A stretch of DNA of 64,000 nt from Luteolibacter sp. Y139 (lineage in GTDB: Bacteria > Verrucomicrobiota > Verrucomicrobiia > Verrucomicrobiales > Akkermansiaceae): NCBI RefSeq assembly GCF_038066715.1, contig NZ_JBBUKT010000005.1, forward strand, positions 310,001 through 374,000. The letters run 5' to 3'. Under the pieces are notes generated by a model. That model was not told the origin of the DNA and searched no databases. It saw only the letters and a list, made by a program, of their open reading frames with translations. Each line of letters begins with the position of its first letter. Within the stretch, counting starts at the first letter, position 1. This document shows positions 6,701 through 59,743 of this stretch, piece after piece. Position numbers and translations under genes: made by a program.

Positions 6701-9700
6701 GCGTGAGCGGGCAGACGGATGCGCCGGTGCTGCGCCGCGGAGTGACGCCGGGTGGCACGCCGCGGCTGGAGATCGGTGCGGGTGCCTCGATCAAGGCGAC
6801 GGGCATCACGCTCGACTCGACTTCTCTAACCGTCATCGATCCGACGGCGGTGCTGACGGCCGATGCGCTGGCGCTGGCCAGCGGTCGCATCAGCCTGGTG
6901 CTGGATCCTACGGTCGCTCCGGGAGCGGATGCCGGTCTTGTTTTGAGCGGTGCCACGCTGACCTCGCTGTCTTCGGCGAAGTCGCTGGCGCTTTCGAGCT
7001 ACTCGTCGATCGACCTGCTTGGTGCGGGTTCGGTGGGCGGGGTTTCCAGCAATGGCAAGCCGGTCATCGACACGCTGTCGCTGCGCGCTGCGGAGATCCG
7101 CGGGCTGAATGCGAATGGCGGCGACGTGACCTTCAATGCGCGGGTCATCGAACTCGACAACCGTCCCGGCGGCACTGCCGGTGCGGCGACGCCGGTCACG
7201 GGTGGCACGCTTTCCTTCAATGCCGAGACGATCCGCATGGGGATGGGCACGCTCGGTGCGGGTGGCTTTGCGAACTACAATCTCACGGCGAACAAGGGCT
7301 TCTCGATTGCTGAGAGCGGCCGCTTCAATGCGGCGGGGAACTTGCAGATCAACGCGCCGCTGATCGACTCGGCGAGCGCGGTGAGCTATGCGCTCACGGC
7401 TTCCGGTTCGCTGAAGACCGGCGGTGGTGGAAATGTGACCACGAGCACGACGGCGGGTCTGGGTGCTTCGCTTTCGTTCACCGGTTCATCGGTCGAGCTC
7501 GCGTCCAACATCATCTTGCCGAGCGGGAGTGTTTCCGCGCATGCGACCACGGGCAACGTGGTGGTGTCCGGCTCCATCGATGCGGGTGGGTCCGCGCGCC
7601 GCTTCATGGATCAGACGCGCTACACCAGCGGCGGGCTGATCAGCCTGACCTCCGATACGGGGAACGTGACGGTGACCGATTCCGGGAAGCTTTCCGTGGC
7701 GGCGAAGCCGGGCGGTGGCAATGCGGGCCAGCTCAGCATCTCGGCCATCCATGGCTCGACGACGATCGCCGGGACGATTGCCGGCAAGGGCGGGGCAGGC
7801 GGGCACAATGGCAGCTTCTCGCTCGACGTGGGATCGCTGCCATCGCTGGCGAGCCTCGATTCGCAGCTGAACCAGAATTTCTTCACCGGCCAGCGTGCGT
7901 ATCGCGTGCGGACGGGTGATGTGGCGGTGGATGGCACCGCGCTGGCGGAGAGCTACTCGCTGTCCGCGGATGCGGGCTCGATCACGGTGAGCGGCACGAT
8001 CGACGTGTCCGGCGCGGAGGGTGGCTCGGTGCGACTGGTGGCGAGCAAGAACCTGACGCTGGCGAGCGGTTCGCTGATCGATGCTTCGGCGGATGATTTC
8101 GATTCCGCTGGCAAGGGTGGCGACGTGGTCCTGGAAACGCGCGGCGCTTCGGGCGGTGTGGTTTCGGTCAATGCGGGTTCCACGATTGATCTCTCGGTGG
8201 CGAGCAAGACGGCTAACAGCGCTGCGATTGGCGACTTCAGCGGCACGCTGCAGGTGCGTGCGCCGCAACTTTCCGGCGGCACGGATCTCGCGGTGGGCAA
8301 CCTGGCGGGCACGATCACCGGTGCTTCGAACGTGATCGTGGAAGGTTACAAGACCTACGATCTCACCGGAACCGGCACGATCAGCACGACGGTGCAGAAC
8401 ACGGTGAAGACCGACGCGACGACCTTCGTTTCTAACAGCGCGACGATTGAGAATCGCATCCTGGCGGCGAATGGTGGCACGGCTGGAACGCTCGGCTCGA
8501 TCCTGACGGTGCGCCCCGGCGCGGAGATCATCAATACGACCGGCGACCTCACGCTCGGTGGTGCCAGCACCTCTGGAAACTCGGGTGACTGGAACCTGGC
8601 GACCTTCCGCTTCGGTGCGGAGCAGGTGCCCGGCATCCTGACGCTGCGTGCGGCGGGCAACCTGGTCTTCAACAACAGCCTCACCGACGGCTTCGCGACC
8701 GGCGCGTATACCGCGGCGATGCTGGCGAACAATGCGAACCTGGCAGACAACGCCGAGTCTTGGTCGTATCGCCTGGTGGCGGGTGCGGACTTCGCTGCCG
8801 CCGACACACGCTCGGTGGTGCCGATGCAGTTTGCGGACAACATTGCGCTGGGAGCTGCGGGCGGTTCGCTGAAGCTCGGCAAGAACGGCGGTGCGGCGAT
8901 CGTGACTGGCGGCACAGCGGCGCTGACCTCGACGATCCTCAGTGCGACTTCCACTTCCGGTCTCTATCAGGTCATCCGCACCGGTAGCGGTGACATCGAC
9001 GTCGTCACGGCGGGCGACATCCAGTTGCTGAATGCCTTTGCCTCGATCTACACGGCGGGCACGCAGGTGGCCGATCCGACGATGGGCGGCACCTTTGTCC
9101 TGCCGATCAACCGGATGACGGGCAGCACGGGAACGCTGGGTTCGATCCAGCAGACGTCCGGTTCGCCGATCCAGTACACGCTGGGCGGTGGCAATGTGAC
9201 GCTGAATGCGGGTCACGACATCGTTCACCTGACGAAGACCAGCGCGGGCACGCTGATCCAGGATTCGCAGCGGCAGATGCCGGTGAACTGGCTCTATCGC
9301 CGCGGCTACATCAATCCGACCACGGGTGAATTCGGCGCGACGCGGAATGGCGACACCGCCTCGACGACGTGGTGGGTGGACTTCACGAATTTCTTCGAAG
9401 GCATCGGTGCGCTGGGCGGTGGCGATGTGAGCCTCACGGCTGGACGCGATGTCAGCAACGTGGACGCGGTGGCACCGACGAATGCGCGGATGCCCGGCGG
9501 TAAGCCATCGGCCGACAAGCTGGTGGAACTGGGTGGCGGCGATATCCGCGTGAAGGCGGGCCGCAACATCGATGGCGGTGTTTATTACGTGGAGCGCGGC
9601 GAGGGCTCGCTGCTTGCCGGCGCGAACATCACGACGAATTCGACGCGCTCGCCTTCGATCACGATCATCCGCACGCCTTCGCAGGTCAGCGATTCGCGGA

Positions 9701-12419: not shown

Positions 12420-13466
12420 ATGAAACCAATCCAACTCTTTCTAACACTTGCGACGGTCCTTGCGCCGGCCGCTCTTCATGCCGCTGCACCGACGTTTGCC
12501 CAAGGCGACATCCTGATGGGCTTCCACGCCACCAGTGGCGATGGAGTGGCTGACACCTACGTCGTGAATCTCGGCAGCGCTGCCAGCTACCGCGATGCCA
12601 CGAGCAACATCACGCCGACGCTTGGGAACATCGGAGCTGACCTCGCCGCGATCTATGGAGCGAACTGGCGCACGCGCACGGACCTCTTCTGGGGCATCGC
12701 CGGTTGTTCCTCGAATGCGATTCCGGTCAATGGCGATGTGGCCAAGGTGATCTATGCCTCGCGCATGGAAGTCACCCCGGGCACGTCCGAAGGCGGCTGG
12801 AGCGGACTGAACAGCACGATCCGTGGTGAAGTCGCCACCGACATGCAGCAGATGACCTCCACCACCTCGGGCTTCCGCTCCTATCAGGCGTCTTCGAACA
12901 GCGCCTTCGCGGTTTCCCAAGGTACGTCCGATGCTTCGAGCTGGGCTGCCTTCATGGCTCCTGGTCCGCAGACCGCGGGTCTTCTCGACTTCGACGCCTT
13001 CTCCGACATCGAAGCGCTGCCGAATCAATCGCTGAGCCTCTTCCGCATCGCGGCTTCCACCGCTGGAAGCTATGAGGGCCACTTCACGATCAGCGCGGCT
13101 GGCGTGGTGACCTTCGTGCCAGCAGCTGCGACGGGAACCACCTACGCACAGTGGGCGGCGACCAACGTGAACAACCAAGGCGACACGCTCGACTTCGACG
13201 GTGATGGCGTGCCGAACGGCATTGAATTCTTCATGGGCCAGAGCGGCAGCGGCTTCACTGCGAATCCGCAGATCGCACTCGACCACACGATCACCTGGAA
13301 CCGCGCGACCGATCGCACGGTGAGCTCGGTCTTCGTGCAGGTGTCCACCGACCTCGTGACGTGGACGAATGCTCCCTCCGGTGCGGTCTACAATGCGAAC
13401 TCGGTGGTCTACACCGTGCCTACCGGACTGACGAAGCACTTCATCCGTCTTCTGGTCACTCCCTGA
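12420..13466 (+). CDS. Exported protein with DxDxDG/EF C-terminal module (paralogue of the next gene)
   Basis: It has a signal peptide (about residues 1-21, LAPAALHAAA), then a domain of about 210 residues also present in the downstream gene at 13619. Shared landmarks are GDILMGFHATSG versus GDLLMGFQATSG, YVVNLGSAASYRD, IGADLAAIYGANW, TDLFWGIAG and LSLFRI. After FVPAAATGTTYAQWAA the two diverge: this copy continues with a module (about 245-348) containing DFDGDGVPNGIEFFMG, a VQVSTDLVTWTNA strand and the terminus KHFIRLLVTP, where the neighbour ends in PEP-CTERM. Function is unknown. The related Ca-binding-like DGDG motif and C-terminus occur in other exported proteins of this window. ATG start is supported by the signal peptide. 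Confidence 0.8.
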   Translation: MKPIQLFLTLATVLAPAALHAAAPTFAQGDILMGFHATSGDGVADTYVVNLGSAASYRDATSNITPTLGNIGADLAAIYGANWRTRTDLFWGIAGCSSNAIPVNGDVAKVIYASRMEVTPGTSEGGWSGLNSTIRGEVATDMQQMTSTTSGFRSYQASSNSAFAVSQGTSDASSWAAFMAPGPQTAGLLDFDAFSDIEALPNQSLSLFRIAASTAGSYEGHFTISAAGVVTFVPAAATGTTYAQWAATNVNNQGDTLDFDGDGVPNGIEFFMGQSGSGFTANPQIALDHTITWNRATDRTVSSVFVQVSTDLVTWTNAPSGAVYNANSVVYTVPTGLTKHFIRLLVTP

Positions 13467-13618: not shown

Positions 13619-14410
13619 ATGAAAACTCCCATGGTCAAATCCCTCCTCACGCTCGCCGCGGCATGTGCCGTCGGTGCTGCCACGGCGAATGCCGCGCTCG
13701 TCACTTACTCCAAGGGCGATCTCCTGATGGGCTTCCAGGCCACCAGCGGAACCGGCTCCAGCACCGTCTACGTGGTGAACCTCGGCGCGGCTTCCAACTA
13801 CCGCGACGACGTCAACACGGGCACGGTGAGCATCGGCGACATCGGCACCGATCTCGCGGCCATCTACGGCGCGAACTGGAACACGCGCAATGACCTCTTC
13901 TGGGGCATCATCGGTACCTCGAGCAACATCAGCAGCGAGACCGTCAATGGCGACATCGGCCGCGTGCTCTACGTGTCCCAGCCGCAGGTCACCACCGGTG
14001 ACGCGGGCGTGGGTCCTGCCGGCCTCAATGCCACGCAGCGTGGTGATGTGGCCAACAAGGTGGTCGCGATGGGCGGCACCTTTGATAACTACCAGTCGAC
14101 CGGGAACAGCTCCGTGGCTGCCTCGGAAGGCTCCGGCGATGCCAACAGCTGGAACAGCTACTTGGCACCCGGCGGTGTGAACAGCGGTGGTGGTGTTCTG
14201 GACTACGGTGCCTTCTCCCAGATCGAAGGCACCACGAGCCAGACGCTGAGCCTCTTCCGCGTGTTCTCGGCGACGTCGTCGAGCTCGTTCGAAGGCCAGT
14301 TCTCGCTGTCCTCCAACGGCACGCTGACCTTCGTCCCGGAACCCACGTCCGCCGCACTGGCTGGCCTGGGCACCGTCCTCCTCGTCTTCCGCCGCCGCCG
14401 CTCCGCTTGA
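13619..14410 (+). CDS. PEP-CTERM exported protein
   Basis: 263 residues. A signal peptide (KSLLTLAAACAVGAATANA) is followed by the same domain as the preceding gene. The C-terminus is a classic PEP-CTERM signal: FVPEPTSAALAGLGTVLLVF, then the basic run RRRRSA. In known systems, an exosortase removes this tail in the inner membrane and the protein is passed on to the envelope or extracellular matrix. No exosortase gene is in this window. The gene starts 152 bp after its paralogue. The role of the shared N-terminal domain is unknown. Confidence 0.88.
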   Translation: MKTPMVKSLLTLAAACAVGAATANAALVTYSKGDLLMGFQATSGTGSSTVYVVNLGAASNYRDDVNTGTVSIGDIGTDLAAIYGANWNTRNDLFWGIIGTSSNISSETVNGDIGRVLYVSQPQVTTGDAGVGPAGLNATQRGDVANKVVAMGGTFDNYQSTGNSSVAASEGSGDANSWNSYLAPGGVNSGGGVLDYGAFSQIEGTTSQTLSLFRVFSATSSSSFEGQFSLSSNGTLTFVPEPTSAALAGLGTVLLVFRRRRSA

Positions 14411-25110: not shown

Positions 25111-25264
25111 TGGAGATGGGATGGGTCTGCGGGGTTCTAACAGGGTATGCAACTACGTGTAATCCGGCCTTCCGCGATCACGTGATTCTTTCGGGGCGGA
25201 ATTGTGGAATGCTTCGGGCACCCAAATATCAGGTTTCCCTGACCTTCATCCCCCGGTCGCCCCC

Positions 25265-45971: not shown

Positions 45972-46393
45972 CCGGCGCTACTAGTTGTCAGAGGTTTTTT
46001 TAAAATCAAGCCTCATTTAATTTTGGAAAAGCCTTGAAGTCGCGATTCCTTGGATGCCCAAGCCTCTGAAATGCTTAATTTTACGACAAATCGGCGGCGG
46101 GCTAGCGGCGAATTGCAACGCTGGATTTACAGGACAATCTGCCATTAAATAAAATAATTGTATAATCAGGTTTTCTTAATAATTTTCCCCATATCGTTTC
46201 TGCGAACGGGCCCCACCCGCTGGCAGGACGGTTGCATTGGTTCTCCCCTTCATCCTCTGGAATGCCTTGTCGACCCGTGCTCGGAATGAGCTAGGCCGGC
46301 AATGTTTTCGTACGGACCTCCGCGTGAGTGCGGGGGAAAGGGTGGGCTTTTGTACGCCTGGTTCCCGCTCCCCTTCACCCCGGTTGTTGTTGC
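45972..46393. promoter_or_regulatory. AT-rich divergent regulatory region
   Basis: The most AT-rich stretch in the window (about 45990-46200). It separates the M50 gene (minus) from the 3560-residue repeat-protein gene (plus). It contains TATAAT at 46161-46166, a possible -10 box for the plus strand, though no good -35 is seen 16-18 bp upstream. Poly-A/T tracts (TTTTTTTAAAA, AATAAAATAATTG, TTAATAATTTT) could bend DNA or bind a nucleoid protein. No ORF here is convincing. Confidence 0.5.
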
Positions 46394-49300
46394 ATGCTCC
46401 CCGCAGTCCCCGCTGTCCGCAGGTTCGTACTTGGTGCCCTGGCCATGGCCTGGTGTGCCGGGGCGGCGCATGCGGTTAATCCGCCGCCGACGCAGCTTTT
46501 CTACGTCCCTTTCCCAGAGGACCAGCAGCTGGAGGCCTTCAATGCGATCAACTCGGTGGCGGACGATCCGATCACGGTCTTCGTCACGCTGGCCGCGGCG
46601 ACAGACGGGACGGTGATCTATTATGACCACTGGGAGGACGGGTATGAGAAGGACATCACCAATCCGACGCAGTCCACGACGCTGATCTTCGGCGATGGGA
46701 ATCCTGCCAACGGCTACCCGCCGGGGAATCCGGCCGACCTGATCCCGGCGGGGACGGTTTTCAATCTGCGGAATTTCGTGGCGACGGGCACGCAGCAGTC
46801 GGTGATCGACTACGATGCGCGGGACAAGATCGCGTCCTTCAAGCCGATCTCGGTGACGAAGATGACGGTGCCGGCGGGGACGAACACGCTGCTGGCGGGT
46901 TGCACGGAAGTTTTCGAACGCGGGCTGTGGGGCACCGAGTATCGCTGCCCGGTGGGAGTGGACATGCCGGTGACGACGCCGACGGCGACGCTCACGCAGG
47001 ACGAGAATCTCTTCAGCTACACAGCGCTGGCGATTTCCGCGGGTCCCGGTGGTGCCAGTGTCCAGATCGACAAGGACAACAACGGCGTCTACGAGGAGAC
47101 CGTGGTGCTGGCGGAGGGCGAGGCCGTCTTCCGCAGTGACGTGAATGTGGGTGGCCATGTGCTCGCGAGCAAGCCGGTGCAGGTGATCCTTTTCACCGGT
47201 ACCGTGGGCTCCACCTACGCGAGCCGGGATTCCTCGCTGCTGCCGACCTACCGCTGGGCGTCGGAATATTACGCACCGGTCTCCACGCGCACCACGCCGG
47301 CGGATGGAACGGTGACCTTCCTCTACAATCCGGCGGACACGGCGATCACGGTGAACTACGATTATCGTAGTAGCGCGACCGCCTACACCACCGCCAGCAT
47401 CAGCGTGCCGGCGAAGGGGAATGCGCGCGTGACCCTGCAGCCGTCGAATGACAGCACGGCCTTCGGCGCCTATCGCTTCTACACGACGGGAGCGAATCCG
47501 CCGCTTTTCTACGCGATCGGTGCGATCGATGCGGACAGCACGTCCGGCAACAACCAGAACTGGGACGGCGGCTTCACGCTGGTGGGCAAGCCATCCCTGA
47601 CCACGCAGGTGCTAGTGAGCCTGGGCATCGGGCGCGACCCGTATTCGTCGACCAATCCGAACGAAAACGGCAACCCGGTGTGGATCACCACTTCCGGCAA
47701 CGGCCACAACCAGGAGACCGTCTACGTCGACTACAATGGTGACAATGTGGGGCCGCTCACCGATCCGAATGGCAATCACTATGATGTGGCCTATCCGCTG
47801 CGCGAACTGGAGCAGAAGAAGCTCTTCGATCCGGATGGTGACCAGAGCGGGATGCTTGTTTACACGCTGAATCCCTCGGTCCGGATCGCGGCCGTGTGGG
47901 GACAGGATCCGGCGGTGGCGACGGTGGCGCAGCCGGGGCTGGACGTGGCCTCGCTGGTGCCGCCGATGCGCGAGGGCGATGCGGGCAAGCGTTCGTCGAT
48001 CGCGGTCGATGCGGATGGCGATGGGGTGGTGAGCTGTGGGGACACGCTGGAGTACGACATCCGTGGCGTGAGCAATGCGCGCACGAATATCCCGGGGCCC
48101 TTCAAGGTGCAGGATAGCCTTCCGACGACGGTGACCTATGTGGCGGGCTCGACGCGATACCGCTTCATGGTGGGTGGGGCGTGGCAGGGGTGGACGACGA
48201 TTTCAGATGATGGAAGCGGGACGGCGTTTCCGCTGGATGGCGCGGGTTTCTCGGTGCCGGGGAACCTGGCGGCGGGGCAGCAATTCCAGGTGACCTTCCG
48301 CGCGACGATCGTGCCGCGCGCGAGTCTAACAGGGGAGACGATCGAGAACACGGGGCAGGTGGAGATTTCGCCTTACGGGCTGCTGCTGCCGATCTCGTGG
48401 ACGGATACGGTCTACGGCAGCATCGGCGACCGGGTGTGGGGCGATACGAATGGCGACGGGGTGCAGGATCCGGGTGAGAACGGCATCCCGAACATCGACG
48501 TCTATCTGGACTACAACAACAACGGAGTGCGTGATGCGAGCGAGCCGCAGAGCACGACCAATGCGTCCGGGAACTATCTTTTCACGGGTTTGGCTTCGGG
48601 AACCTATCTGGTGCGGGTCGACAATGCGGACATCGCGGCGGCGAATGTGGGCTATGGTCCGACCTATGACATCGATGGGATCGCGACTTCGTATCGCGCG
48701 TCGGTGACGCTGGGGATCGCGGAGGACCGGACGGATGTGGATTTCGGTTTCCGTGTGGGTGCGAGCGTGGGCGACCGGGTGTGGATGGACCGCGACAATG
48801 ACGGCGTGCAGGAGAACGGCGAGCCGGGCATCAACGGGGTGCGCGTCTATCTCGATACGAATGCCAACAGCAGCTACGATGTGGGCGAGCCGAACACGAT
48901 CACCTCGGGTGACGGGGCGTGGTACATCGGGAACTTGAATCCGGGGACGTACTCGGTGCGGGTGGATACGACGACGCTGCCGGGTGCGGCGACGCAGACC
49001 TTCGACCTGGATGGGGTGGCTACGGCGCACAAGGCGTCGGTGACCTTGCTGGGCGCGGAGCATCGGGCGGATTTGGATTTCGGGTATCGCGGGCCGTATT
49101 CGATCGGGGATCTGGTGTGGGAGGATGTGGATGGGAACGGGGCCCTCACGGCTACGATCATTTATACCGTCATCAACGGCAAGATCGACTTCAACGCGAG
49201 CGGCACCGTGGATACCAACGATGATGGTTTCATCGGCACGATGCGGATCATCGACGGCTCCGTGGACATCTCTAACAACGGGTCGATCTCGAACTCGGAT

Positions 49301-52300
49301 GACGGGACTTTCCTGGGCTATGCGATCATCGACGGTGGCGTGGATATCAATGCCAGCGGCAGCATCAGCAACAGCGACGACGGCAGCATGAGCTACACGA
49401 CGCCAGCTGAGACGGGCATCGCCAATATCCGGGTGTATCTGGACATGGATGGCGATGCGGTCTTCGACGCGACCGAGCCGTCCGCAGTGACAAGCTCGAC
49501 GGGTGCCTACTCGATCGGGAACCTTTTCAACGGGACCTATACGGTGCGGGTGGACAAGTCCACGGTGCCATCCAGCTACGCGCAGACCTATGATCTCACG
49601 AGTCCCTCGACCGACCATACGGCCACGGTCGCGATCAGCGGGGCGAACCGGACGGATGCGGACTTCGGCTATCGGAATGATGCGAGCCTGGGCGACCTGG
49701 TCTGGAATGACCGGGATGCGGATGGTGTGCGCGATGCGGGAGAGCCGGGGATTCCCGGGGTGTGGGTGTATATCGATGCGGATGGGGACGACTACTTCGA
49801 CCAAGGGATCGAACGGTATGCGATCACCGACCTCAACGGGTTCTACAAGTTCGAAAACCTGGCCGCGGGGACGTATAGCGTGCGGGTCGAGATCTCGACG
49901 CTGCCGCAAGGGGTGACGCAGACGTATGATCTGGATGCGACTCTGGATCACGAGACGAACCGCACGCTGACGGCGAGCCAGGAGGTGACGGATGTGGACT
50001 TCGGCTATCGTGCCGGTGCCGGCTTCGGGGATCGCGTGTGGAACGACGCCGATGCTGATGGGGTGCAGGATGCGGGGGAGACGGGAATCGCGAACGTGCG
50101 GGTGTATGCCGATATCAATGGCGATGGCATTTTCCAGAGTGCGACTGAGCCGGCGGCTCTAACGGATGCGACGGGTGCCTACTCGATCGGAAATCTGGTG
50201 CCGGGCACCTACACGGCGCGCGTCGATGTGAGCACGCTGCCGGCGAGCATGACGCAGACCTTCGATGCGACGGGAGCGCTGGATCATGCGGCGACCTTTA
50301 CGCTGAGTGCGACGCAGGTGCGGACGGAGATCGACTTCGGCTACACCTCGCCGGTTACGATCGGTGACCTGGTGTGGAACGATGTGAATGGCGATGGCCA
50401 GAAGGGTGCGAGCGAGGTGGGCATCGCGGGGGTCACGGTGACACTCTATCGCGGCGGCAACGATACGATCGCGGCGACCACGACGACGAATGCGAGCGGC
50501 TTGTATTCGTTCACGAACCAGATGCCGGGGAGCTATTACGTGGTCTTTGATCCGGTGGCGGGTTATATCCGCAGTGCTGCGGACCAGGGCGCGGATGCTT
50601 CGGATAGCGATGCGAATGCGGTTGGTCGCACGCCGGCGATCACGCTGACCGGCGGGCAGTCGAATTTGACGCTGGATGCCGGTTATTTCCAGCCGGGTAC
50701 GATCACGGGTTCGGTGCTGGCGGATACGAACAACGACAATACGGGCGATGTGGGCATCCTGGGCGTGGTTCTCACGCTGAAGGATGGATCGGGGAACGAC
50801 ATCGACAGTGATCTGAATACGTCCGGGGTGCAGCCGACGACGACCACGACGAATGCGAGTGGTCTCTACACATTCTCGAACCTGACGCCGGGGAGCTACC
50901 AGGTGGTGGAGACGCAGCCTGCGGGCTACCTGACGGTGACCGACGGCGATACGACGACGCCGGCTGACGATGCGGCGAATGCGAGCACGACGGACAACAT
51001 GATCCCGGTGGCCGTGGTGGCGAATGAGACGGATACGGGGAATGATTTCGTGGAGGAGCAACCGGGCACGATCAGCGGCACGGTGTGGGCGGATACGAAC
51101 AACGACGACACGGGCGATGTGGGGATCGCAGGAGTCTCGTTGACGCTTTACACCGATCCGAATGGCGATGGGAATCCGGCGGATGGGGTGGCTTATGGGT
51201 CGCCGTTTGTTACGCTTGCGGGTGGTGCCTATAGCTTCACGAATTTGCCGCCGGGTGCCTACGTGGTGGTGGAGACGCAGCCGGTTGGCTACCTGACGGT
51301 GACGGACGGCGACACGACGACGCCGGGGGATGATGCGGCGAATTCAAGCACGACCGACAATCGCATCCCGGTGGCGGTGAATGCGAATGAGACGGACAAC
51401 GGCAATGACTTCGTGGAGGAGCAGCCGGGCACGATCAGCGGCACGGTGTGGGCGGATACGAATAACGATAATACGGGCGATGTGGGGATCGCCGGTGTGA
51501 CGCTGACGCTTTACACGGATCCGAATGGTGACGGGAACCAGGCGGATGGCGCGGCGTATGGCTCGCCGTTTGTCACTCTCGCCGGTGGTGCGTATAGTTT
51601 CACGAATCTTCCACCAGGAGCGTATGTCGTCGTGGAGACGCAGCCGTCCGGTTGCCTGACGGTGACCGATGGTGATACGACCACGCCGGGAGATGATGCG
51701 GCGAATGCGAGCACGACGGATGACCGGATTCCGGTGGCCGTTAGCGCGAATGAGACGGACACTGGCAATGACTTCGTCGAGGAACAACCGGGCACGATCA
51801 GCGGCACGGTGTGGGCGGATACGAACAACGACAACACGGGCGATGTGGGGATCGCTGGTGTCACGCTGACGCTTTACACGGATCCGAACGCGGATGGGAA
51901 CCCTGCCGACGGTGTGGCTTATGGGTCGCCGTTTGTCACGCTGACCGGTGGTGCCTATAGCTTCACGAACTTGCCGCCGGGTGCCTATGTGGTGGTGGAG
52001 ACGCAGCCGGCTGGTTATCTGACGGTGACGGATGGGGACACGACGACGCCGGGGGATGATGCGGCGAATGCGAGCACGACGGACAATCGGATTCCGGTGG
52101 CGGTCAATGCGAACGAGACGGATAACGGCAACGACTTTGTCGAGGAGCAACCGGGCGTGATCAGCGGCACGGTGTGGGCGGATACGAACAACGACAATAC
52201 CGGTGATGTCGGGATTGTGGGAGTCGTGATCACGCTGAAGGATGGATCAGGGGTCGATATCGACAGTGACTCGGTCACTGCAGGAGTGCAGCCGACCACG

Positions 52301-55300
52301 ACGACGACGAACGCGAGCGGCGTCTATACGTTCTCGAATCTGCCGCCGGGCAGCTACCAGGTGGTGGAGACGCAGCCCGCCGGATATCTGACGGTGACGG
52401 ATGGGGACACGACGACGCCGGGGGATGATGCCGCGAATGCGAGCACGACCGATGACCGGATTCCGGTGGCGGTGAACGCGAACGAGACGGATACCGGAAA
52501 TGATTTCGTGGAGGAACAACCGGGCACGATCAGTGGCACGGTTTGGGCGGATACGAATAATGACAACACGGGCGATGTGGGCATCGCGGGCGTGGTGTTG
52601 ACGCTTTTCACCGATCCGAACGCGGACGGAAATCCGGCCGATGGTGTGCAGTATGGCTCGACCACTGCGACCGTCACCGGTGGCACCTATAGCTTCACGA
52701 ACTTGCCGCCCGGTGCCTACGTCGTGGTGGAAACCCAGCCCGCCGGGTATCTGACCGTGACGGATGGGGATACGACTTCGCCAAGCGACGATGCTGCGAA
52801 CTCGAGCACGACGGACAATCGCATTCCCGTGGCGGTCAATGCCAACGAGACCGATACTGGCAACGACTTCGTCGAAGAGCAGCCGGGCACGATCAGCGGC
52901 ACGGTGTGGGCGGATACGAACAATGACGATACGGGTGATGTGGGCATCGCGGGCGTGGTGCTGACGCTTTTCACCGATCCGAACGCGGACGGGAATCCGG
53001 CCGATGGTGTGCAGTATGGCTCGACCACTGCGACCATCACGGGCGGCACCTACAGCTTCACGAATTTGCCGCCGGGCGCCTATGTCGTGGTGGAGACCCA
53101 GCCGTCAGGTTATTTCACCGTGACGGATGGGGATACGACTTCGCCGGGGGATGATGCGGCGAACTCGAGCACGACGGACAACCGGATCCCGGTGGCGGTG
53201 GCTGCGAATGAGACGGACACTGGCAATGACTTCTTGGAGGAGCAGCCGGGTGCGATTAGTGGCACGGTGTGGGCGGATACGAACAACGACAATACCGGTG
53301 ACGTGGGGATTTCGGGAGTCGTTCTCACGCTGAAGGATTCCTCGGGCAATGATATCGATAGCGATCCGAATACCGGTGGTGTGCAACCGACGACGGTGAC
53401 GACCGGTGTGGGCGGTGCCTACACCTTCAGCAACCTGCCGCCTGGAAGCTATCGGGTGGTGGAGACGCAGCCGTCCGGCTATCTGAGCGTGAGCGATGTC
53501 GATGGCTCCAATAACAATGTGATCGGTGACCAGACTCCGATCCTCGTGGTCGCGGGTCAGACGAATTCGGGCAAGGACTTCGTGGAAGAGCAGCCGGGAG
53601 CGATCGCTGGCACGGTGTGGGCCGATACCAACAACGACGATAGCGGCGATGTGGGCATCGCGGGTGTGACGATCACGCTCTTCACCGATCCGAATGGCGA
53701 TGGCAATCCGGCGGATGGTGTTCCTTATGGTTCGCCTGCCGTGACCGGGGCGGGTGGGGCGTATGGCTTCACGAATTTGCCGCCGGGTTCCTACGTGGTG
53801 GTGGAGACGCAGCCGTTGGGCTATTTCACGGTGAGCGATGGTGACACGACTTCGCCGGGTGATGATGCGGCGAACTCAAGCCTTTCCGACAACCGGATCC
53901 CGGTGGCGGTGGCTGCGAATGAGACGGACAGCGGCAATGACTTCGTGGAAGAGCAGCCGGGTGCGATCAGCGGCACGGTCTGGGCGGATACGAACAACGA
54001 CAATGCCGGTGACATCGGCATCGCGGGTGTCCTGCTCACGCTAAAGGATTCCGCTGGAAACGACGTCGACAGTGATCCGAATACCGGTGGTGTGCAGCCG
54101 ACGACGGCGACCACGGGAACGGGTGGGGCTTATAGCTTCACGAATCTTCCTCCCGGTAGCTATCGGGTGGTGGAGACGCAGCCTTCGGGCTACTTCAGTG
54201 TTTCGGACATCGATGGCTCCAACAACAACATCATCGGCGACCAGACTCCGATCGTGGTGGTCGCGGGCCAGACGAATGCGGGCAATGACTTCGTGGAGGA
54301 GCAGCCGGGCACGATCCGTGGCGGTGTGTTTGCCGATACGGATGGCGATGGGGACGGGGATGCGCCGCTGGTGAATGTGGTGATCCACTTGCTGGATGCA
54401 TCGGGCAATCCGGTGGATGGTGATGCGAATACGCCGGGCATTCAGGAGGTGACCACGCTGACGCTGGCCGATGGCAGCTATAGCTTCGGTGGCTTGGCTC
54501 CGGGTAACTATCGCGTCCGCGAGGACCAGCCTGCGGGATACAACAGTGTCAGCGACACCGATGGTGCGAATAACGATGTGATTGGCGATGAGACGCCGAT
54601 CGCTGTCACTGCCGGAGGAACGAGCAGCGGCCATGATTTCATCGAGATCGAGCCAGCGAGCATTGCCGGTCATGTGTTTGCCGATAGCGACAACAACGGC
54701 AGCGGTGATGCTCCGCTGGCGGGTGTGACGCTCACGCTGCTGGATGGCTCGGGCAGTCCGATCGATGGCGATCCGAACACGCCCGGCGTGCAGCCGCGGA
54801 CGACGGTGACGCTGGCGGATGGCTCCTACCTGTTTGCGAATTTGCCGCCGGGAACTTATCGGGTCTCGCAGAGCCAGCCTTCCGGCTATGCGAGTGTCAG
54901 CGATGTGGATGGGGCGAATAACAACCTCATCGGCGACGAGACGCCGATCGTGCTGCTGCCCGGCGATGATGTGACGGGCAAGGACTTCGTGGAGGTCCAG
55001 TATGGCTCGATCGCGGGCTCGGTCTTCGACGACACGGATGACAATGGCAGCGGGGATGCGCCAATTTCCGGGGTGACGCTTGCCTTGTTAGACGGTGCCG
55101 GTCAGCCGGTGCTGGATGGCTCGAACCAGCCGATCACCACGGTGACGGCGGCGAATGGCTCCTACTTCTTCGGCAATCTGCTGCCTGGCAGCTATCAGGT
55201 CGCGGAGACGCAGCCGGCGAGCTACGGCAGCGTTTCGGACGTGGATGGCGGCGATCTTGATGCGATCGGGAATGTCACGGTGATCACGGTGGCGCCCGGG

Positions 55301-57085
55301 CAGCATGTGACCGGGCGGGACTTCGTGGAGATCCGCTTCGGTGCGATCAGTGGGTTTGTTTTCGCGGGCTCGGATCCGCTTGCAGGCGTCACGCTGGCCT
55401 TGCTCGATGAGAACGGTGATCCGGTGCTGGATGGCAATGGCGACCCGATCACGACGGTCACCGGGCCGGATGGATCGTATCGCTTCGATGGGGTCTTCCC
55501 TGGCACCTACAAGGTGGCGCAGGTCCAGCCGCACGGCTATGACAGCTTCGGCGATGCCGATGGCGGCGATATCAACCTGATCGGCGACGTGGTGCCGATC
55601 GTGGTGCTGCCGGGCGAGACGAACGAGGACAACAACTTCATCGAGACGCGCGACACCTGCGCGAACGATTGGCCGGAGTGGCTGGAGCTGCATCCGGGTG
55701 AAGACGCGAGCGGCAATCCTGATGGGGATGTGCTGGACAACCTTGCGGAGTTTGCCTTCGCGAAGCGTTATGACAGTGGTGCCGGCTCGGCCTTCTGCAT
55801 CGCTCCGTCGACGATGGCGCCGGGAACGATCGAAGGTGCCTTCGTCCGGCCGAAGCAGGCGACGAATCATGTCACGTATGTGCTCGAATACGCGGCGTCG
55901 CTGGGCAATCCGACGACCTGGCAATCGATCGTGCTGGAGCCGGATGACCTGATCGTCACGGACAATGGCGATTGCACAGAGAGCGTGGTGATCTTTGATC
56001 TGGAGAACCTCACCGGGCTGGTGAGCGGTGAAGGCTTTATCCGGCTGCGTGCTGATCTGGATGAGAATGGCGACGAGACGATCGACCACGTTTCCCACAC
56101 GGCGGTGAAGGGCTGGACGCGCACGCCGGTGAACGTGAGCTGCCGCACTTACAACAATCCGTATCTGCACTGCCCGGTCTTCACCGGCACAGTGGATTCG
56201 GCGAGCGGCAGCACTTTCACGCTGACCACGAGCGCGGGTCCGGTGGATCTGGAGACGCTGTTGCAGTCCGGTGTGAGCTACTATGCCGAGATTACTTCCG
56301 GTGAGAATGAAGGCCAGCGCTTCGACGTGGTGTCGGCGAGCGGGGACACGGTGACGGTGGAGAACGACAGCGATCTCGCGAGCGGGCTGGCTCCATTCAA
56401 CACGATCACTGGAACGCTGCCCGCAAGCCTGGCGGGGGATGGGATCGTGATCCGTGCGCACTGGACGCTAAATGAGCTATTCCCGCCGGAGCAATTCGGT
56501 GCGACGGGCAGCCAATCCACGGCGGATCAGGTGCAGGTCAACAACGCCGGGACGTGGGTCATCTACTGGCTCTACGATGACAATGGCGTGCCGCGCTGGG
56601 TGAAGGATGCGACGCTGGCCGATGAAGGCAGCGCGGTGCTTCCGCCGGGCCAAGGGATCTTCTTCAACAGCCGCCAGACGACGGGCTCGATCCTCGCGTG
56701 GGGTGAGGTCCGCGCGAATGACTTCATCCGCCCGCTGGCGAAGGGTGCGAGCCTGGTGGGTGGTGGCTATCCGCTCGACCAAGCGGCGATGAACGGCCGC
56801 GCGATGACGCTGGCGCAGGGCTTCTTCGGCAGCCGCGACTTCAAGAAGGCCGACCGCTTCTATGTGTGGAAGGGCGATGCCGTGACGGCCGCGACGGGCT
56901 ACGATGGCTACTTCCTGCTGAATGGCGCACCGGTGCAGCCGTCCACGATCCAGTGGACCAAGACCGGCGACACGACCATCCAGCCGCACAACGTGGACCT
57001 TCTCTTCCAAGGCGACCGTGCCGTCTTCATGGACCTCGCCAATCCCATCTTCACCTACGAGATGCCAACCCCCTGGACGCCGTGA
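46394..57085 (+). CDS. Giant surface protein with SdrD/Cna-B repeats, 3563 aa
   Basis: Start at ATG 46394, because it opens the signal peptide (VRRFVLGALAMAWCAGAAHA); an upstream GTG adds a poor leader. N-terminal domain (about 28-670) includes HWEDGYEKDITNP and TVPAGTNTLLAGC. Then come six SdrD-type modules from about 48415 (forms of IGDRVWNDxDxDGVQDxGE ... GTYSVRVD). After them are fourteen 'GTISGTVWADTNND' modules at 50697-55650. Next is a part with PDGDVLDNLAEFAFA, TYVLEYAASLGNPTTW and GFIRLRADLDENGDE (55660-56090), and a C-terminal domain (FTGTVDSASGSTFTLTTSAG, VLPPGQGIFFNSR) resembling the Verrucomicrobiota-restricted TIGR02597 family, from memory. Cna-B domains form adhesive stalks. 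No LPXTG, PEP-CTERM or barrel is present, so its anchoring is unknown. Confidence 0.88.
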   Translation: MLPAVPAVRRFVLGALAMAWCAGAAHAVNPPPTQLFYVPFPEDQQLEAFNAINSVADDPITVFVTLAAATDGTVIYYDHWEDGYEKDITNPTQSTTLIFGDGNPANGYPPGNPADLIPAGTVFNLRNFVATGTQQSVIDYDARDKIASFKPISVTKMTVPAGTNTLLAGCTEVFERGLWGTEYRCPVGVDMPVTTPTATLTQDENLFSYTALAISAGPGGASVQIDKDNNGVYEETVVLAEGEAVFRSDVNVGGHVLASKPVQVILFTGTVGSTYASRDSSLLPTYRWASEYYAPVSTRTTPADGTVTFLYNPADTAITVNYDYRSSATAYTTASISVPAKGNARVTLQPSNDSTAFGAYRFYTTGANPPLFYAIGAIDADSTSGNNQNWDGGFTLVGKPSLTTQVLVSLGIGRDPYSSTNPNENGNPVWITTSGNGHNQETVYVDYNGDNVGPLTDPNGNHYDVAYPLRELEQKKLFDPDGDQSGMLVYTLNPSVRIAAVWGQDPAVATVAQPGLDVASLVPPMREGDAGKRSSIAVDADGDGVVSCGDTLEYDIRGVSNARTNIPGPFKVQDSLPTTVTYVAGSTRYRFMVGGAWQGWTTISDDGSGTAFPLDGAGFSVPGNLAAGQQFQVTFRATIVPRASLTGETIENTGQVEISPYGLLLPISWTDTVYGSIGDRVWGDTNGDGVQDPGENGIPNIDVYLDYNNNGVRDASEPQSTTNASGNYLFTGLASGTYLVRVDNADIAAANVGYGPTYDIDGIATSYRASVTLGIAEDRTDVDFGFRVGASVGDRVWMDRDNDGVQENGEPGINGVRVYLDTNANSSYDVGEPNTITSGDGAWYIGNLNPGTYSVRVDTTTLPGAATQTFDLDGVATAHKASVTLLGAEHRADLDFGYRGPYSIGDLVWEDVDGNGALTATIIYTVINGKIDFNASGTVDTNDDGFIGTMRIIDGSVDISNNGSISNSDDGTFLGYAIIDGGVDINASGSISNSDDGSMSYTTPAETGIANIRVYLDMDGDAVFDATEPSAVTSSTGAYSIGNLFNGTYTVRVDKSTVPSSYAQTYDLTSPSTDHTATVAISGANRTDADFGYRNDASLGDLVWNDRDADGVRDAGEPGIPGVWVYIDADGDDYFDQGIERYAITDLNGFYKFENLAAGTYSVRVEISTLPQGVTQTYDLDATLDHETNRTLTASQEVTDVDFGYRAGAGFGDRVWNDADADGVQDAGETGIANVRVYADINGDGIFQSATEPAALTDATGAYSIGNLVPGTYTARVDVSTLPASMTQTFDATGALDHAATFTLSATQVRTEIDFGYTSPVTIGDLVWNDVNGDGQKGASEVGIAGVTVTLYRGGNDTIAATTTTNASGLYSFTNQMPGSYYVVFDPVAGYIRSAADQGADASDSDANAVGRTPAITLTGGQSNLTLDAGYFQPGTITGSVLADTNNDNTGDVGILGVVLTLKDGSGNDIDSDLNTSGVQPTTTTTNASGLYTFSNLTPGSYQVVETQPAGYLTVTDGDTTTPADDAANASTTDNMIPVAVVANETDTGNDFVEEQPGTISGTVWADTNNDDTGDVGIAGVSLTLYTDPNGDGNPADGVAYGSPFVTLAGGAYSFTNLPPGAYVVVETQPVGYLTVTDGDTTTPGDDAANSSTTDNRIPVAVNANETDNGNDFVEEQPGTISGTVWADTNNDNTGDVGIAGVTLTLYTDPNGDGNQADGAAYGSPFVTLAGGAYSFTNLPPGAYVVVETQPSGCLTVTDGDTTTPGDDAANASTTDDRIPVAVSANETDTGNDFVEEQPGTISGTVWADTNNDNTGDVGIAGVTLTLYTDPNADGNPADGVAYGSPFVTLTGGAYSFTNLPPGAYVVVETQPAGYLTVTDGDTTTPGDDAANASTTDNRIPVAVNANETDNGNDFVEEQPGVISGTVWADTNNDNTGDVGIVGVVITLKDGSGVDIDSDSVTAGVQPTTTTTNASGVYTFSNLPPGSYQVVETQPAGYLTVTDGDTTTPGDDAANASTTDDRIPVAVNANETDTGNDFVEEQPGTISGTVWADTNNDNTGDVGIAGVVLTLFTDPNADGNPADGVQYGSTTATVTGGTYSFTNLPPGAYVVVETQPAGYLTVTDGDTTSPSDDAANSSTTDNRIPVAVNANETDTGNDFVEEQPGTISGTVWADTNNDDTGDVGIAGVVLTLFTDPNADGNPADGVQYGSTTATITGGTYSFTNLPPGAYVVVETQPSGYFTVTDGDTTSPGDDAANSSTTDNRIPVAVAANETDTGNDFLEEQPGAISGTVWADTNNDNTGDVGISGVVLTLKDSSGNDIDSDPNTGGVQPTTVTTGVGGAYTFSNLPPGSYRVVETQPSGYLSVSDVDGSNNNVIGDQTPILVVAGQTNSGKDFVEEQPGAIAGTVWADTNNDDSGDVGIAGVTITLFTDPNGDGNPADGVPYGSPAVTGAGGAYGFTNLPPGSYVVVETQPLGYFTVSDGDTTSPGDDAANSSLSDNRIPVAVAANETDSGNDFVEEQPGAISGTVWADTNNDNAGDIGIAGVLLTLKDSAGNDVDSDPNTGGVQPTTATTGTGGAYSFTNLPPGSYRVVETQPSGYFSVSDIDGSNNNIIGDQTPIVVVAGQTNAGNDFVEEQPGTIRGGVFADTDGDGDGDAPLVNVVIHLLDASGNPVDGDANTPGIQEVTTLTLADGSYSFGGLAPGNYRVREDQPAGYNSVSDTDGANNDVIGDETPIAVTAGGTSSGHDFIEIEPASIAGHVFADSDNNGSGDAPLAGVTLTLLDGSGSPIDGDPNTPGVQPRTTVTLADGSYLFANLPPGTYRVSQSQPSGYASVSDVDGANNNLIGDETPIVLLPGDDVTGKDFVEVQYGSIAGSVFDDTDDNGSGDAPISGVTLALLDGAGQPVLDGSNQPITTVTAANGSYFFGNLLPGSYQVAETQPASYGSVSDVDGGDLDAIGNVTVITVAPGQHVTGRDFVEIRFGAISGFVFAGSDPLAGVTLALLDENGDPVLDGNGDPITTVTGPDGSYRFDGVFPGTYKVAQVQPHGYDSFGDADGGDINLIGDVVPIVVLPGETNEDNNFIETRDTCANDWPEWLELHPGEDASGNPDGDVLDNLAEFAFAKRYDSGAGSAFCIAPSTMAPGTIEGAFVRPKQATNHVTYVLEYAASLGNPTTWQSIVLEPDDLIVTDNGDCTESVVIFDLENLTGLVSGEGFIRLRADLDENGDETIDHVSHTAVKGWTRTPVNVSCRTYNNPYLHCPVFTGTVDSASGSTFTLTTSAGPVDLETLLQSGVSYYAEITSGENEGQRFDVVSASGDTVTVENDSDLASGLAPFNTITGTLPASLAGDGIVIRAHWTLNELFPPEQFGATGSQSTADQVQVNNAGTWVIYWLYDDNGVPRWVKDATLADEGSAVLPPGQGIFFNSRQTTGSILAWGEVRANDFIRPLAKGASLVGGGYPLDQAAMNGRAMTLAQGFFGSRDFKKADRFYVWKGDAVTAATGYDGYFLLNGAPVQPSTIQWTKTGDTTIQPHNVDLLFQGDRAVFMDLANPIFTYEMPTPWTP
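50697..55650 (+). repeat. Fourteen tandem Cna-B/SdrD-like coding repeats
   Basis: Units begin GxIxGxVxADTNND and carry the pairs SFTNLPPGAYVVVETQP and NETDTGNDFVEEQPG. Units 2-5 start at 51064, 51427, 51790 and 52153, exactly 363 bp apart; others vary with inserts of KDGSGNDIDSD or LYTDPNGDGNPADG type. DNA identity is high in the middle units and falls toward the 3' end (54310 on), where the units become D-x-DG-rich. Confidence 0.9.
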
Positions 57086-57099
57086 TTTTCCCTCGCTTC

Positions 57100-57747
57100 A
57101 TGAAATGCATCCCGTTGATCGCGCTGCTGCTCGGCGCGACGGCCGCCCATTCGCAGACGCTGGATTGGGGGAATGAAGTCTTCGACAATGTGCGGGACAG
57201 CGAGGGTGAGAGGCTCACGAATTCCTTCGTCTTCGAGCTCGGTGCGTTTGATGTGGGCTTCAAGCCGACGCAGGGAAATGTGGAGGAGTGGGTGGACCAC
57301 TGGAATGTCTTCGACCGGGCGAGCTACAATGAGAGCCTCGGCTACTTCGCATCCTCGGTGCAGATGACGGCGGATGGCCGCAGCAACAGCTCGTGGCTGA
57401 CGCCGGGGTCCGGAAGTTTCGAGGGGCTGGAGGCATTCATCTTCATTCGCAATGGCGACCTGCCGGTGCCAATGACCGAGTGGCTGCTGGCCCGCGCCTC
57501 GACGTGGATCTTCCCGCTCGCCGATCCGAACTGCTGCCCGAATGGCCTGCCGACGCAATGGGCGGTGAGCGACATCGATGGTGATCCTCCGGTCTGGGGA
57601 GCGAAGGATGGAATCCAGGGCGGCGGGGTGGTGACGAATCCGGCTGCGGATGGCTTGCAGACCCACACCTTCGTGCCGGAGCCGACGGCTTTCCTGCTGC
57701 TGGCGCTGGGTGGTCTCGCGTCCATTACCCGTCGTCGCCGATTCTAA
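57100..57747 (+). CDS. PEP-CTERM exported protein
   Basis: 215 residues from ATG 57100, 14 bp after the giant gene. Signal peptide KCIPLIALLLGATAAHSQT. The domain opens LDWGNEVFDNVRDSEGERL, then FVFELGAFDVGFKPTQGNVE and SLGYFASSVQMTADGRS, matching the first ~170 residues of the next gene (FQFQLGAFTGSFVPTASNAA, ATTGLYDSQFTLEDN, WILFRGTSWKWP versus LLARASTWIFP). The C-terminus is a PEP-CTERM tail: FVPEPTAFLLLALGGLASIT then RRRRF. The TAA stop is itself inside a CTAACA word (57744). Exported and processed by an exosortase not seen here; function unknown. Confidence 0.88.
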   Translation: MKCIPLIALLLGATAAHSQTLDWGNEVFDNVRDSEGERLTNSFVFELGAFDVGFKPTQGNVEEWVDHWNVFDRASYNESLGYFASSVQMTADGRSNSSWLTPGSGSFEGLEAFIFIRNGDLPVPMTEWLLARASTWIFPLADPNCCPNGLPTQWAVSDIDGDPPVWGAKDGIQGGGVVTNPAADGLQTHTFVPEPTAFLLLALGGLASITRRRRF

Positions 57748-57761
57748 CAATACGTCTGCCT

Positions 57762-58640
57762 GTGATCCGCACGCTCCTCGCCCTGTTCCTGCTCGCCGCC
57801 GCGGATGCGGAGACGGTGACGTGGTTCAGCGATCCGGCGGCGGTGAATCTGGATAGCGCGGGCGCGCCGATGGATGGCGGCTTCCAGTTCCAGCTGGGGG
57901 CATTTACCGGAAGCTTCGTGCCGACCGCATCGAATGCGGCGCAATGGGCATCGAAGTGGGTGGCTGCGGAAACGACGGGTTACAACGCGACGACGGGTCT
58001 GTATGATTCGCAGTTCACGCTGGAGGACAATGCCGCGCCCTTCACGGTGAATGGCAAGGCGTGGATCTGGGGCTTCCGAAACACGGCCGCCGGCAGCGAG
58101 TGGATTCTCTTTCGCGGCACGTCCTGGAAATGGCCGGCGGCGAATCCCTTCAATCCGCCGCTGATCCAGTGGAATGCGAAGGATGCGAACGAGGTGGTGC
58201 TGGGTGCGATCCATGCGAGCGGGTCGCCCTTCCTGATGCAGTCGGCGGGGGTGAGCAGCTATGCGCAGTGGGCGGCGGGTGCCTTGGCCGGTGAGGTGCT
58301 GAATGGTCCGGAGGGTGATCCGGATCATGATGGGGTGTCGAACTTGATGGAGTTCGTTTATGGGACTTCGCCGCTGGTGGCAGGGCTTCCACCGGCTGTG
58401 GCGAGCTCTTGGTTCGAGAGTGGGGGGCAGCAGTATTTGCAGCTCTCGGTGCCGCGGCTGCGGGAGCGGCTGGCGCTTTTCACGGTGGAGGTGTCGGAGA
58501 ATCTTTCGCTTTGGCAATCCGGTGCTAGTGTCACCGCTGTGGTATCCGATCAACCGAACCTGTGGACCGTGCGCGACCTGACGCCGCGGAATTCGCTGCA
58601 CCCCAAGCGCTTCATCCGGTTCTCGGCGGCGCTGCCATGA
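57762..58640 (+). CDS. Exported protein with DxDxDG/EF C-terminal module (paralogue of the preceding gene)
   Basis: GTG start 57762, 14 bp after the preceding stop; the signal peptide is short (IRTLLALFLLAAADAET). 292 residues. Residues about 17-160 match the preceding PEP-CTERM protein. The remainder is the module SSYAQWAAGALAGEVLNG, GDPDHDGVSNLMEFVYGTSP, FTVEVSENLSLWQSG, ending in the terminus KRFIRFSAALP. This is the same swap of PEP-CTERM for this module seen at 12420/13619. It overlaps the VKOR-DsbA gene by 4 bp (ATGA), so the two are translationally coupled. Confidence 0.82.
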   Translation: MIRTLLALFLLAAADAETVTWFSDPAAVNLDSAGAPMDGGFQFQLGAFTGSFVPTASNAAQWASKWVAAETTGYNATTGLYDSQFTLEDNAAPFTVNGKAWIWGFRNTAAGSEWILFRGTSWKWPAANPFNPPLIQWNAKDANEVVLGAIHASGSPFLMQSAGVSSYAQWAAGALAGEVLNGPEGDPDHDGVSNLMEFVYGTSPLVAGLPPAVASSWFESGGQQYLQLSVPRLRERLALFTVEVSENLSLWQSGASVTAVVSDQPNLWTVRDLTPRNSLHPKRFIRFSAALP

Positions 58641-59743
58641 AGGCCAGGTGGCTGTGGCTGCTGATCGCTGCCGGGGTGGCGATCCAGGTGTGGCTGCTGG
58701 TGTTGAAGTCGTCGCTTGGCGATGTCGCGGGGTGTGGCAGCACTTGTGACGAGGTGCTTTCGTCGCGGTGGTCGTTCGTGGCGGGGGTGCCGGTGCCGTG
58801 GTTCGGGCTGGTGACGTATGTGGTGACGGGCATCGCGCTGAAGTGGCGGAGGCCGGGGTTGCTGGCGAGTTGCCTGGTGCTGTTAGGCGGGGCGGTGGTG
58901 TGGTTTGTCGGGGTACAGGCGTTTGTGCTACATCATTTCTGTGGGTGGTGTCTTGCAGCGCATGGGGTGGCGCTGGGGACGATTGGGATGGGGTGGCGGG
59001 AGCTGAGGGGAATGGCTTCGGTGAACTGGTTGCCCGCGGTCGGTGGGGGACTGGCGCCGATGGGTGGGGCGATCTTGATCCAGGTTTTCGGGCCGGTGCC
59101 GGCGACGCATCGGATTGAGGAGACTGCGCCGGTTGCTGCGGTTGTGACGGATGTCCACGCGCAAGGTGGGGGACGGAAGGTGAGCTTCGATGGAGGGGCG
59201 AAGCGGTATGATGTGGAGGCTTTGCCAAGGCTGGGGCCGGCGGATGCGAAGCATGTGCTGGTGGAGTATTTCGACTACCAGTGTCCCGCTTGCCGGACGA
59301 TGCATGGGTTTCTGGAGACGCTGCGGGCGCGGCATCCGCGGGAGATCGCGGTGATTGTTTTGCCGGTGGCTTTGGAGAGATCGTGCAATCGTTTGTTAGG
59401 ACCGAAGGATACGGTGCACGAGGGGAGCTGTGAGATCTCGCGGGCGGCGCTGGCGGTGTGGCGAAGTGCGCCGGGGGAGTTCGAGGAGGTGCACCATGCG
59501 TTGTTTGCGGATGCGCAGGCGGGGTTGCGGTTGGCGCGGGAGAAGGTGGGTGGAGGAGCGAAGGATGAGGCGTGGATTGATGAGATGCTGAGGGTGGATG
59601 CGGAGGATTGGGTGGTTTTTTCGAGCAAGACGAAGCAGTTGCCGAAGTTGTTGATTGCAGACCGAAGGATTTTGCATGGGTTGCCTTCGAGTGAGGAGGA
59701 TTTCGTGCGGGTGATGGAGGGGGAGTTGGGGCTCGCAAAGTAA
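58637..59743 (+). CDS. VKOR-DsbA fusion disulfide-forming protein
   Basis: 368 residues from ATG 58637. The first half is a vitamin K epoxide reductase-type four-helix membrane domain: loop cysteines in GCGSTCDEVLSSRW (Cys33, Cys37), then GVPVPWFGLVTYV, and the quinone-side CxxC in HHFCGWCLAAH (about 102/105). The second half is a periplasmic DsbA-like thioredoxin domain with EYFDYQCPACRTMHGFLE (CPAC, about 216/219) and cis-Pro region KTKQLPKLLIADR. The fused pair should oxidise substrate cysteines and pass electrons to quinone in the membrane. It is coupled to the exported-protein gene upstream (ATGA overlap), suggesting a dedicated need for disulfides in surface proteins. Confidence 0.9.
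   Translation: MKARWLWLLIAAGVAIQVWLLVLKSSLGDVAGCGSTCDEVLSSRWSFVAGVPVPWFGLVTYVVTGIALKWRRPGLLASCLVLLGGAVVWFVGVQAFVLHHFCGWCLAAHGVALGTIGMGWRELRGMASVNWLPAVGGGLAPMGGAILIQVFGPVPATHRIEETAPVAAVVTDVHAQGGGRKVSFDGGAKRYDVEALPRLGPADAKHVLVEYFDYQCPACRTMHGFLETLRARHPREIAVIVLPVALERSCNRLLGPKDTVHEGSCEISRAALAVWRSAPGEFEEVHHALFADAQAGLRLAREKVGGGAKDEAWIDEMLRVDAEDWVVFSSKTKQLPKLLIADRRILHGLPSSEEDFVRVMEGELGLAK

Follow-up and report, generated by a model that had tools for sequence, protein, structure and literature searches.

The window analysed here, a stretch of 64,000 nucleotides from Luteolibacter sp. Y139, holds two tandem gene pairs in which both products share an N-terminal domain and differ in their C-terminal tails. 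We call the N-terminal domain of pair 1 N1, that of pair 2 N2, and the tail of the B-type genes the module. In pair 2, gene A2 (57100..57747, plus strand) starts with an ATG at 57100 and encodes 215 aa, an N2 domain followed by a PEP-CTERM tail at residues 192-214 (57673..57741, plus strand). This tail matches PF07589 with an E-value of 1.7e-4 and 22.0 bits, above the Pfam cut-off of 20.7, and TIGR02595 with 23.1 bits (cut-off 16); it shows the PEP motif, the hydrophobic stretch and the basic end of such signals, and the genome carries one exosortase gene (PF09721, E 1.6e-47; C3:406543-407325). Fourteen bases separate the stop of A2 from the start of gene B2 (57762..58640, plus strand), which opens with a GTG and encodes 292 aa: an N2 domain (about 57762-58241, with a structure model as a guide) and the module tail (58254..58637, plus strand, placed by module profile and alignment), with KRFIRFSAALP as the C-terminus. 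No PEP-CTERM match was found in B2 at E ≤ 1 in Pfam or NCBIfam. The N-terminal parts of A2 and B2 are homologous (27% identity over 143 aa, E 4e-11 in a single comparison), and the original prediction had thus read the two tails and their common N-part correctly. A vicinal Cys-Cys in the sequence of A2 (57532..57537, plus strand) is absent in B2.

Upstream of A2 lies a gene for a large protein of 3585 aa (46328..57085, plus strand), with SdrD_B-like repeats (PF17210, 787.5 bits over 20 stretches). Its C-terminal part (56150-56524) resembles the TIGR02597 paralogous family (E 7.8e-10), from which the protein departs in that it scores 38.2 bits against a cut-off of 50 and is matched over 125 residues only; the term TIGR02597 appeared in no paper found by our literature search. 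By eye only, a module-like stretch can also be made out in this protein. Downstream, the start of a VKOR-DsbA gene (58637..59743, plus strand) overlaps the stop of B2 by 4 bases, and its product matches PF07884 with 47.8 bits (cut-off 27.5) and PF13462 with 25.2 bits (cut-off 23.2). Adjoining these genes on the minus strand (59928-62795), a 955-aa ORF with an HEFGH motif resembles, by eye, a membrane metalloprotease.

Pair 1 shows the same exchange in the reverse gene order, module then PEP-CTERM instead of PEP-CTERM then module, a difference that the original prediction does not mention. Gene B1 (12420..13466, plus strand) encodes an N1 domain with a module tail (13143-13463), and gene A1 (13619..14410, plus strand) an N1 domain with a PEP-CTERM tail, which reaches 20.1 bits against PF07589, just below the cut-off of 20.7, and 19.4 bits against TIGR02595 (cut-off 16). 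The N-domains of A1 and B1 are 51% identical over 215 aa. Across the pairs only the tails can be aligned, B1 with B2 in the module (30% identity, E 1e-4) and A1 with A2 in the PEP-CTERM tail (15 of 27 residues identical); N2 is absent from pair 1, N1 and N2 are unrelated, and the earlier claim that the pairs have no N-part in common holds. Elsewhere in the window, a further module-tailed ORF of 945 aa (25202-28039; C-terminal module, E 3e-7) was seen, next to which no PEP-tailed neighbour was noticed, as well as a 3742-aa ORF (739-11967) whose N-terminal part resembles, by eye, a filamentous haemagglutinin type secretion domain.

The alignment of 25 modules from the same genome reveals five invariant residues, D, G, N, E and W. 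The D, G, N and E columns fall within an EF/TSP3-like loop, DPDHDGVSNLME in B2 (58317..58352, plus strand), which precedes a predicted beta-sandwich (58401..58631, plus strand; residues 214-290 of the B2 model); together they would form one folded domain some 120 residues long. In the model of B2 (8 rows, mean pLDDT 73.9, pTM 0.53), a beta domain corresponding to N2 is followed by a stretch of poor prediction quality that includes the loop, and then by the sandwich. With VIA-align, the best match for the module sandwich was the FnIII-like 4nkq (Z 6.7, rmsd 3.0, 81 residues), which may reflect a common arrangement only. For the N2 fold, the model of A2 (12 rows, pLDDT 71.6, pTM 0.68) gave no informative structural match (best Z 4.6), and Foldseek returned nothing at E ≤ 1e-3 for either B2 or A2. 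Searching PDB sequences with the module profile yielded calmodulin-type EF-hand stretches as the best matches (E 0.0024 and weaker), and with N2 one chance-like match (E 1.5). A known family for the module had to be discarded, as nothing rose above the cut-offs of Pfam and NCBIfam. The module is, according to these models, an unnamed C-terminal domain made of an EF-like loop and a predicted FnIII-like sandwich, and a literature search covering few subscription journals returned no recognised description either of it or of tail-swapped PEP-CTERM pairs.

Several known systems invite comparison. The PEP-CTERM/exosortase system (EpsH; TIGR02595, PF07589, PF09721) was first noticed in a verrucomicrobium, as a passage of Haft et al. 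(2006, PMC1569441) has it. A1, A2 and their kin carry its tail in a genome with an exosortase, and the module resembles that tail in its terminal position and in its many carriers per genome; unlike that tail, which is a short motif combined with a membrane helix, the module would be a folded domain of about 120 residues, and B2 has no PEP-CTERM. The bacterial TSP3 repeat PF18884 shares the EF/TSP3-like loop (2 of the 25 modules match at E ≤ 0.1, best 3.2e-4), whereas the loop of the module is single and followed by a beta-sandwich, and the B2 module itself has no PF18884 match at E ≤ 10. Against NCBIfam at E ≤ 10, the B2 module listed only NF042425, the Amuc_1099 family of pilus-like system proteins, matched at E ≤ 0.1 by 10 of the 25 modules (best 7.3e-9, 35.6 bits, below the cut-off of 50). 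That likeness is confined to the loop, about 31 residues, outside which the module finds no match, and it is possible that it offers a lead to a pilus-like export system or that it is a mere shared calcium loop. The same search listed no model of a type IX sorting domain. The type IX C-terminal domain is likewise a terminal beta-sandwich found on many secreted proteins of one genome, as the module is predicted to be.

The module is abundant in this genome, with at least 97 hits at E ≤ 0.01 among the best 150 of 207 candidates. In the stretches read we counted 108 distinct module ORFs, and in 105 of them the module ends no more than 15 residues from the stop; L041, L167 and the large protein of a second cassette described below (L216) depart from this. 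A pattern search found a PEP tail on none of the 108. An internal module occurs in one 760-aa ORF and in 13 of 20 TIGR02597-like proteins encoded upstream of PEP-tailed N2 genes, which is unexpected for a strictly C-terminal sorting signal. By a rough home-made rule, a signal peptide is indicated for 75 of 96 module ORFs, for 20 of 25 matches to the PEP pattern and for 86 of 203 ORFs of other kinds. The module carriers are not all unrelated, since a pairwise check gave 572 ordered module-module pairs with a common N-part. Among the PEP proteins (25 pattern matches in the stretches read, of which about 21 look real), only A1, A2 and A3 of the second cassette share an N-part with a module protein, the partner being the neighbour or a member of the sister cassette, and about 18 of those read are therefore without a module-tailed paralogue.

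In a class sample of 236 genomes, N2 was found in 18 and N1 in 28. Forty stretches around the hits were read and their tails classed by profile and pattern; a scan of named genomes added six loci in five genomes, with L151 (G283) and L150/L152 (G316) counted once. This was the survey for adjacent tail-swapped paralogues that the original prediction had asked for, and it gave 14 adjacent N2 pairs in 13 loci of 12 genomes, all on the same strand and all in the order PEP-CTERM then module, including one pair in each of L147, L148 and L149 (MAGs of Akkermansiaceae and Verrucomicrobiaceae). The outcome named beforehand as fatal to the idea, that relatives would hold no further pairs, did not occur. 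A TIGR02597-like gene lies directly upstream of the PEP-tailed N2 gene in all 13 cassette loci, and in 20 of 26 loci with such a gene (the L128 stretch stops 400 bases upstream). The VKOR-DsbA gene directly follows B in the window, L107, L111, L147, L148 and L149, so that the full order of TIGR02597-like large protein, A, B and VKOR-DsbA is found in 6 of the 13 loci; in the other 7 the VKOR-DsbA gene is not directly 3' of B (L216, one of them, offers less than 700 bases of flank). The vicinal Cys-Cys is present in A at 10 of the 13 cassette loci, among them the 6 that have VKOR-DsbA; the A protein of L112 has CxxC-like cysteines in its place and those of L115 and L118 have none. It is found in 0 of 12 solitary PEP-tailed N2 proteins, and among 18 B proteins no Cys column reaches 30%.

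The genome of the window has a second cassette on another contig (C6:102818-104458; L216 5240-6881, also L002), formed by A3, whose tail is degenerate (VPET), and the module-tailed B3. A2 and A3 are 36% identical and B2 and B3 53%, against 27% for A2 and B2. A3 is missing from the genome's 16 PF07589 matches, and the A protein of G177 reads VPEA; exosortase processing of both is doubtful because their PEP motif is degenerate. Other arrangements exist. At twelve loci the PEP-tailed N2 gene has no module-tailed partner, G327 has its module gene B beyond the large protein, on its other side, G018 shows an N2 hit with neither tail, and the hit in G302 belongs to an ORF cut by the end of the stretch. 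In G316, two module-tailed N2 genes lie side by side and a third at another site, with no PEP-tailed N2 gene among the hits; we observed that its genome nevertheless gives 22 PEP-CTERM matches, and that in its module-tailed N2 proteins (L113 and L114, also L150 and L152) the loop changes from DxDxDG to DxNxNG.

The trees of the two domains show different histories. For N2, 27 PEP and 18 module proteins (45 in all, named loci included and L130 excluded) require a single tail change (1-3 in bootstrap trees), with a weakly supported separating branch (61/26) and one change in 57% of the bootstrap trees; an earlier tree of 24 PEP and 15 module proteins also gave one change, with a branch of 65/86 and 92% of the bootstrap trees. 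Gene order and trees together show that N2 with PEP-CTERM is the widespread form, usually 3' of a TIGR02597-like gene, and that in an ancestor of several families one tandem N2 copy bore the module and not the PEP tail, both copies having been kept adjacent since. The N1 tree counts 21 PEP-tailed and 5 module-tailed proteins, omitting 8 rows whose tails are of another kind or truncated, and requires no fewer than four tail changes, each imposed by starred branches. Differently tailed N1 neighbours are sisters in the genome of the window (100/96), in G316 (99/98) and in G327 (97/81, about 2 kb apart), and a further PEP/module pair was seen in G290, but its module member matched too weakly to enter the tree. 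The N1 tail labels are no more clustered than shuffled labels, the pattern expected from repeated exchange. N1 tandems with two PEP tails exist as well (G238, G085), and N1 domains also occur with other C-terminal parts. The exchange of tails is genuine; it happened repeatedly in N1 and has stayed fixed in N2. The results support pair 1 and pair 2 as separate events in unrelated domain families, that is, the two independent occurrences originally proposed.

A phylum sample of 193 genomes contained an exosortase in 143, a module at E ≤ 1e-3 in 151 and, among the matches listed, PEP-CTERM in 113. With a module profile built from one genome, up to 23 module, 41 PEP-CTERM and 18 control candidates scored per genome and kinship ignored, modules at E ≤ 1e-3 were found in 123 of 143 exosortase-positive versus 28 of 50 negative genomes, and at E ≤ 1e-8 in 90 of 143 versus 1 of 50. 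In the proposed check of co-occurrence with exosortase, an exosortase was present in 90 of the 91 genomes with a strong module (kinship ignored). Among the matches listed, eight or more modules occurred in 68 of 143 positive and 0 of 50 negative genomes, as compared with 80 of 143 and 20 of 50 (P 0.07) for eight or more copies of the control domain Laminin_G_3, whose mere presence is associated with exosortase too (135 of 143 versus 33 of 50, P 2e-6). Strong modules are thus nested in exosortase-positive genomes and not the reverse, kinship again ignored, and the nesting is one-way, since the PEP-rich genomes G148, G175 and G137 (at least 41, 39 and 24 matches) were observed to have no module match at E ≤ 1e-3. 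In a family sample of 115 genomes, 11 had no detected exosortase, with 0, 1, 1, 1, 1, 2, 4, 8, 18, 23 and 28 module hits. The five with 28, 23, 18, 8 and 4 modules have 27, 13, 6, 6 and 13 PEP-CTERM matches, and an assembly gap at the exosortase gene is likely, as they are drafts of 90-95% completeness. PEP-CTERM was present in 6 of the 7 exosortase-negative genomes searched for it, and in the other 4 none was among the matches listed. A separate observation concerns G113, a one-contig genome of the same family with 14 PEP-CTERM matches, 2 module matches and no PF09721 match, in which we read the exosortase as lost or divergent.

Altogether, we interpret pair 2 as the middle of a conserved surface-protein operon that sets two complementary tails on one docking domain, a reading to which we give a probability of roughly 0.45. 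Both A and B would be exported by Sec. Exosortase would then cleave A at the PEP-CTERM tail and anchor it, and VKOR-DsbA would oxidise its Cys-Cys loop. B, presumably no exosortase substrate, would owe its retention or placement outside to the module, a folded domain that probably binds calcium. From this separate handling of A and B it would follow that the N2 domain is displayed at two places, where it most likely docks or organises the large protein. A division of labour is suggested because every one of the 14 pairs combines both tails in a constant order, and the Cys-Cys that B proteins lack is carried by most A proteins; the tails of the operon read as complementary rather than interchangeable, and the fixed N2 pattern weakens the case for their full equivalence. 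The original prediction had taken the module for functionally equivalent to a sorting signal. What stands of it is that the module is nearly always terminal, that none of the 108 carriers has a PEP tail as well, and that strong modules are nested in exosortase genomes; with N2 tails fixed in one order, the Cys-Cys split between the partners and the module internal in most of the upstream proteins, "functionally equivalent" goes too far. The module has the formal marks of a C-terminal tag, but also those of an ordinary binding domain.

The alternatives divide along these two sets of marks. If, as the strong form of the original idea has it, the module were a true second C-terminal sorting or anchoring signal, able to replace PEP-CTERM and served by its own or by the exosortase/exopolysaccharide machinery, one would understand its terminal position in 105 of 108 carriers and the PEP tail in 0 of 108, the more frequent secreted look of its carriers (75 of 96 against 86 of 203 by the home-made rule), the four or more N1 tail changes with differently tailed sisters in three genomes, and the counts of 90/143 versus 1/50 for strong modules and 68/143 versus 0/50 for eight or more. 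This sits badly with the internal copies in 13 of 20 TIGR02597-like upstream proteins, with N2 tails that do not interchange and with the lack of module matches in PEP-rich G148, G175 and G137; moreover, Laminin_G_3 also goes along with exosortase in counts that ignore kinship, and family genomes with 28, 23 and 18 modules lack a detected exosortase, although these are drafts that do have PEP-CTERM. We consider such a substitute signal distinctly unlikely. Unlikely too, in our judgement, is a related proposal, in which the module is an undescribed second Verrucomicrobiota C-terminal tag tied to exosortase/exopolysaccharide and the two routes would jointly assemble a large surface fibre in the pair-2 operon.

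A module that is an ordinary terminal domain for binding or stability, a calcium loop plus an FnIII-like sandwich with no sorting role, seems to us rather improbable, though it accounts for much. On this view both tails would simply be common on secreted proteins here, so that duplicates could gain either by domain shuffling, and the FnIII-like predicted fold (Z 6.7), the EF/TSP3-like loop, the internal copies in large proteins and in the 760-aa ORF, the doubly PEP-tailed N1 tandems of G238 and G085, the other C-terminal parts of N1 and its unclustered labels would all be in keeping with it. It explains less well why the module is almost strictly terminal, why its 108 carriers are free of PEP tails and why the N2 cassette has so long kept both tails side by side. 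Chance neighbours or an annotation artefact are a very remote prospect. The N-parts of A2 and B2 are only 27% identical, and adjacency of PEP and module genes is by itself weak evidence: for 21 PEP genes, 3 module-bearing neighbours were seen against about 0.7 expected (P about 0.03, with an assumed gene density). But the whole arrangement recurs in 12 genomes, and this conservation in relatives led us to reject chance and artefact; coincidence, judged unlikely from the start, is set aside because the N-domains are shared and the arrangement is conserved in other genomes, not because the genes adjoin.

Returning to the reading of pair 2 as part of a surface-protein operon with complementary tails, its interest lies in that the module, and not PEP-CTERM, forms the end of most large secreted proteins in this genome, and that neighbouring paralogues differing mainly in their tail are ready-made pairs to test what a tail does. 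Should the module prove to place or anchor proteins, some hundred products of a single genome would gain a location; should it not, the operon would still be a defined unit formed by a large repeat protein, two N2 proteins and a disulphide-forming enzyme. And if the module is a second tag, the tail-swapped pairs would amount to natural experiments, with two delivery routes for a single surface domain.
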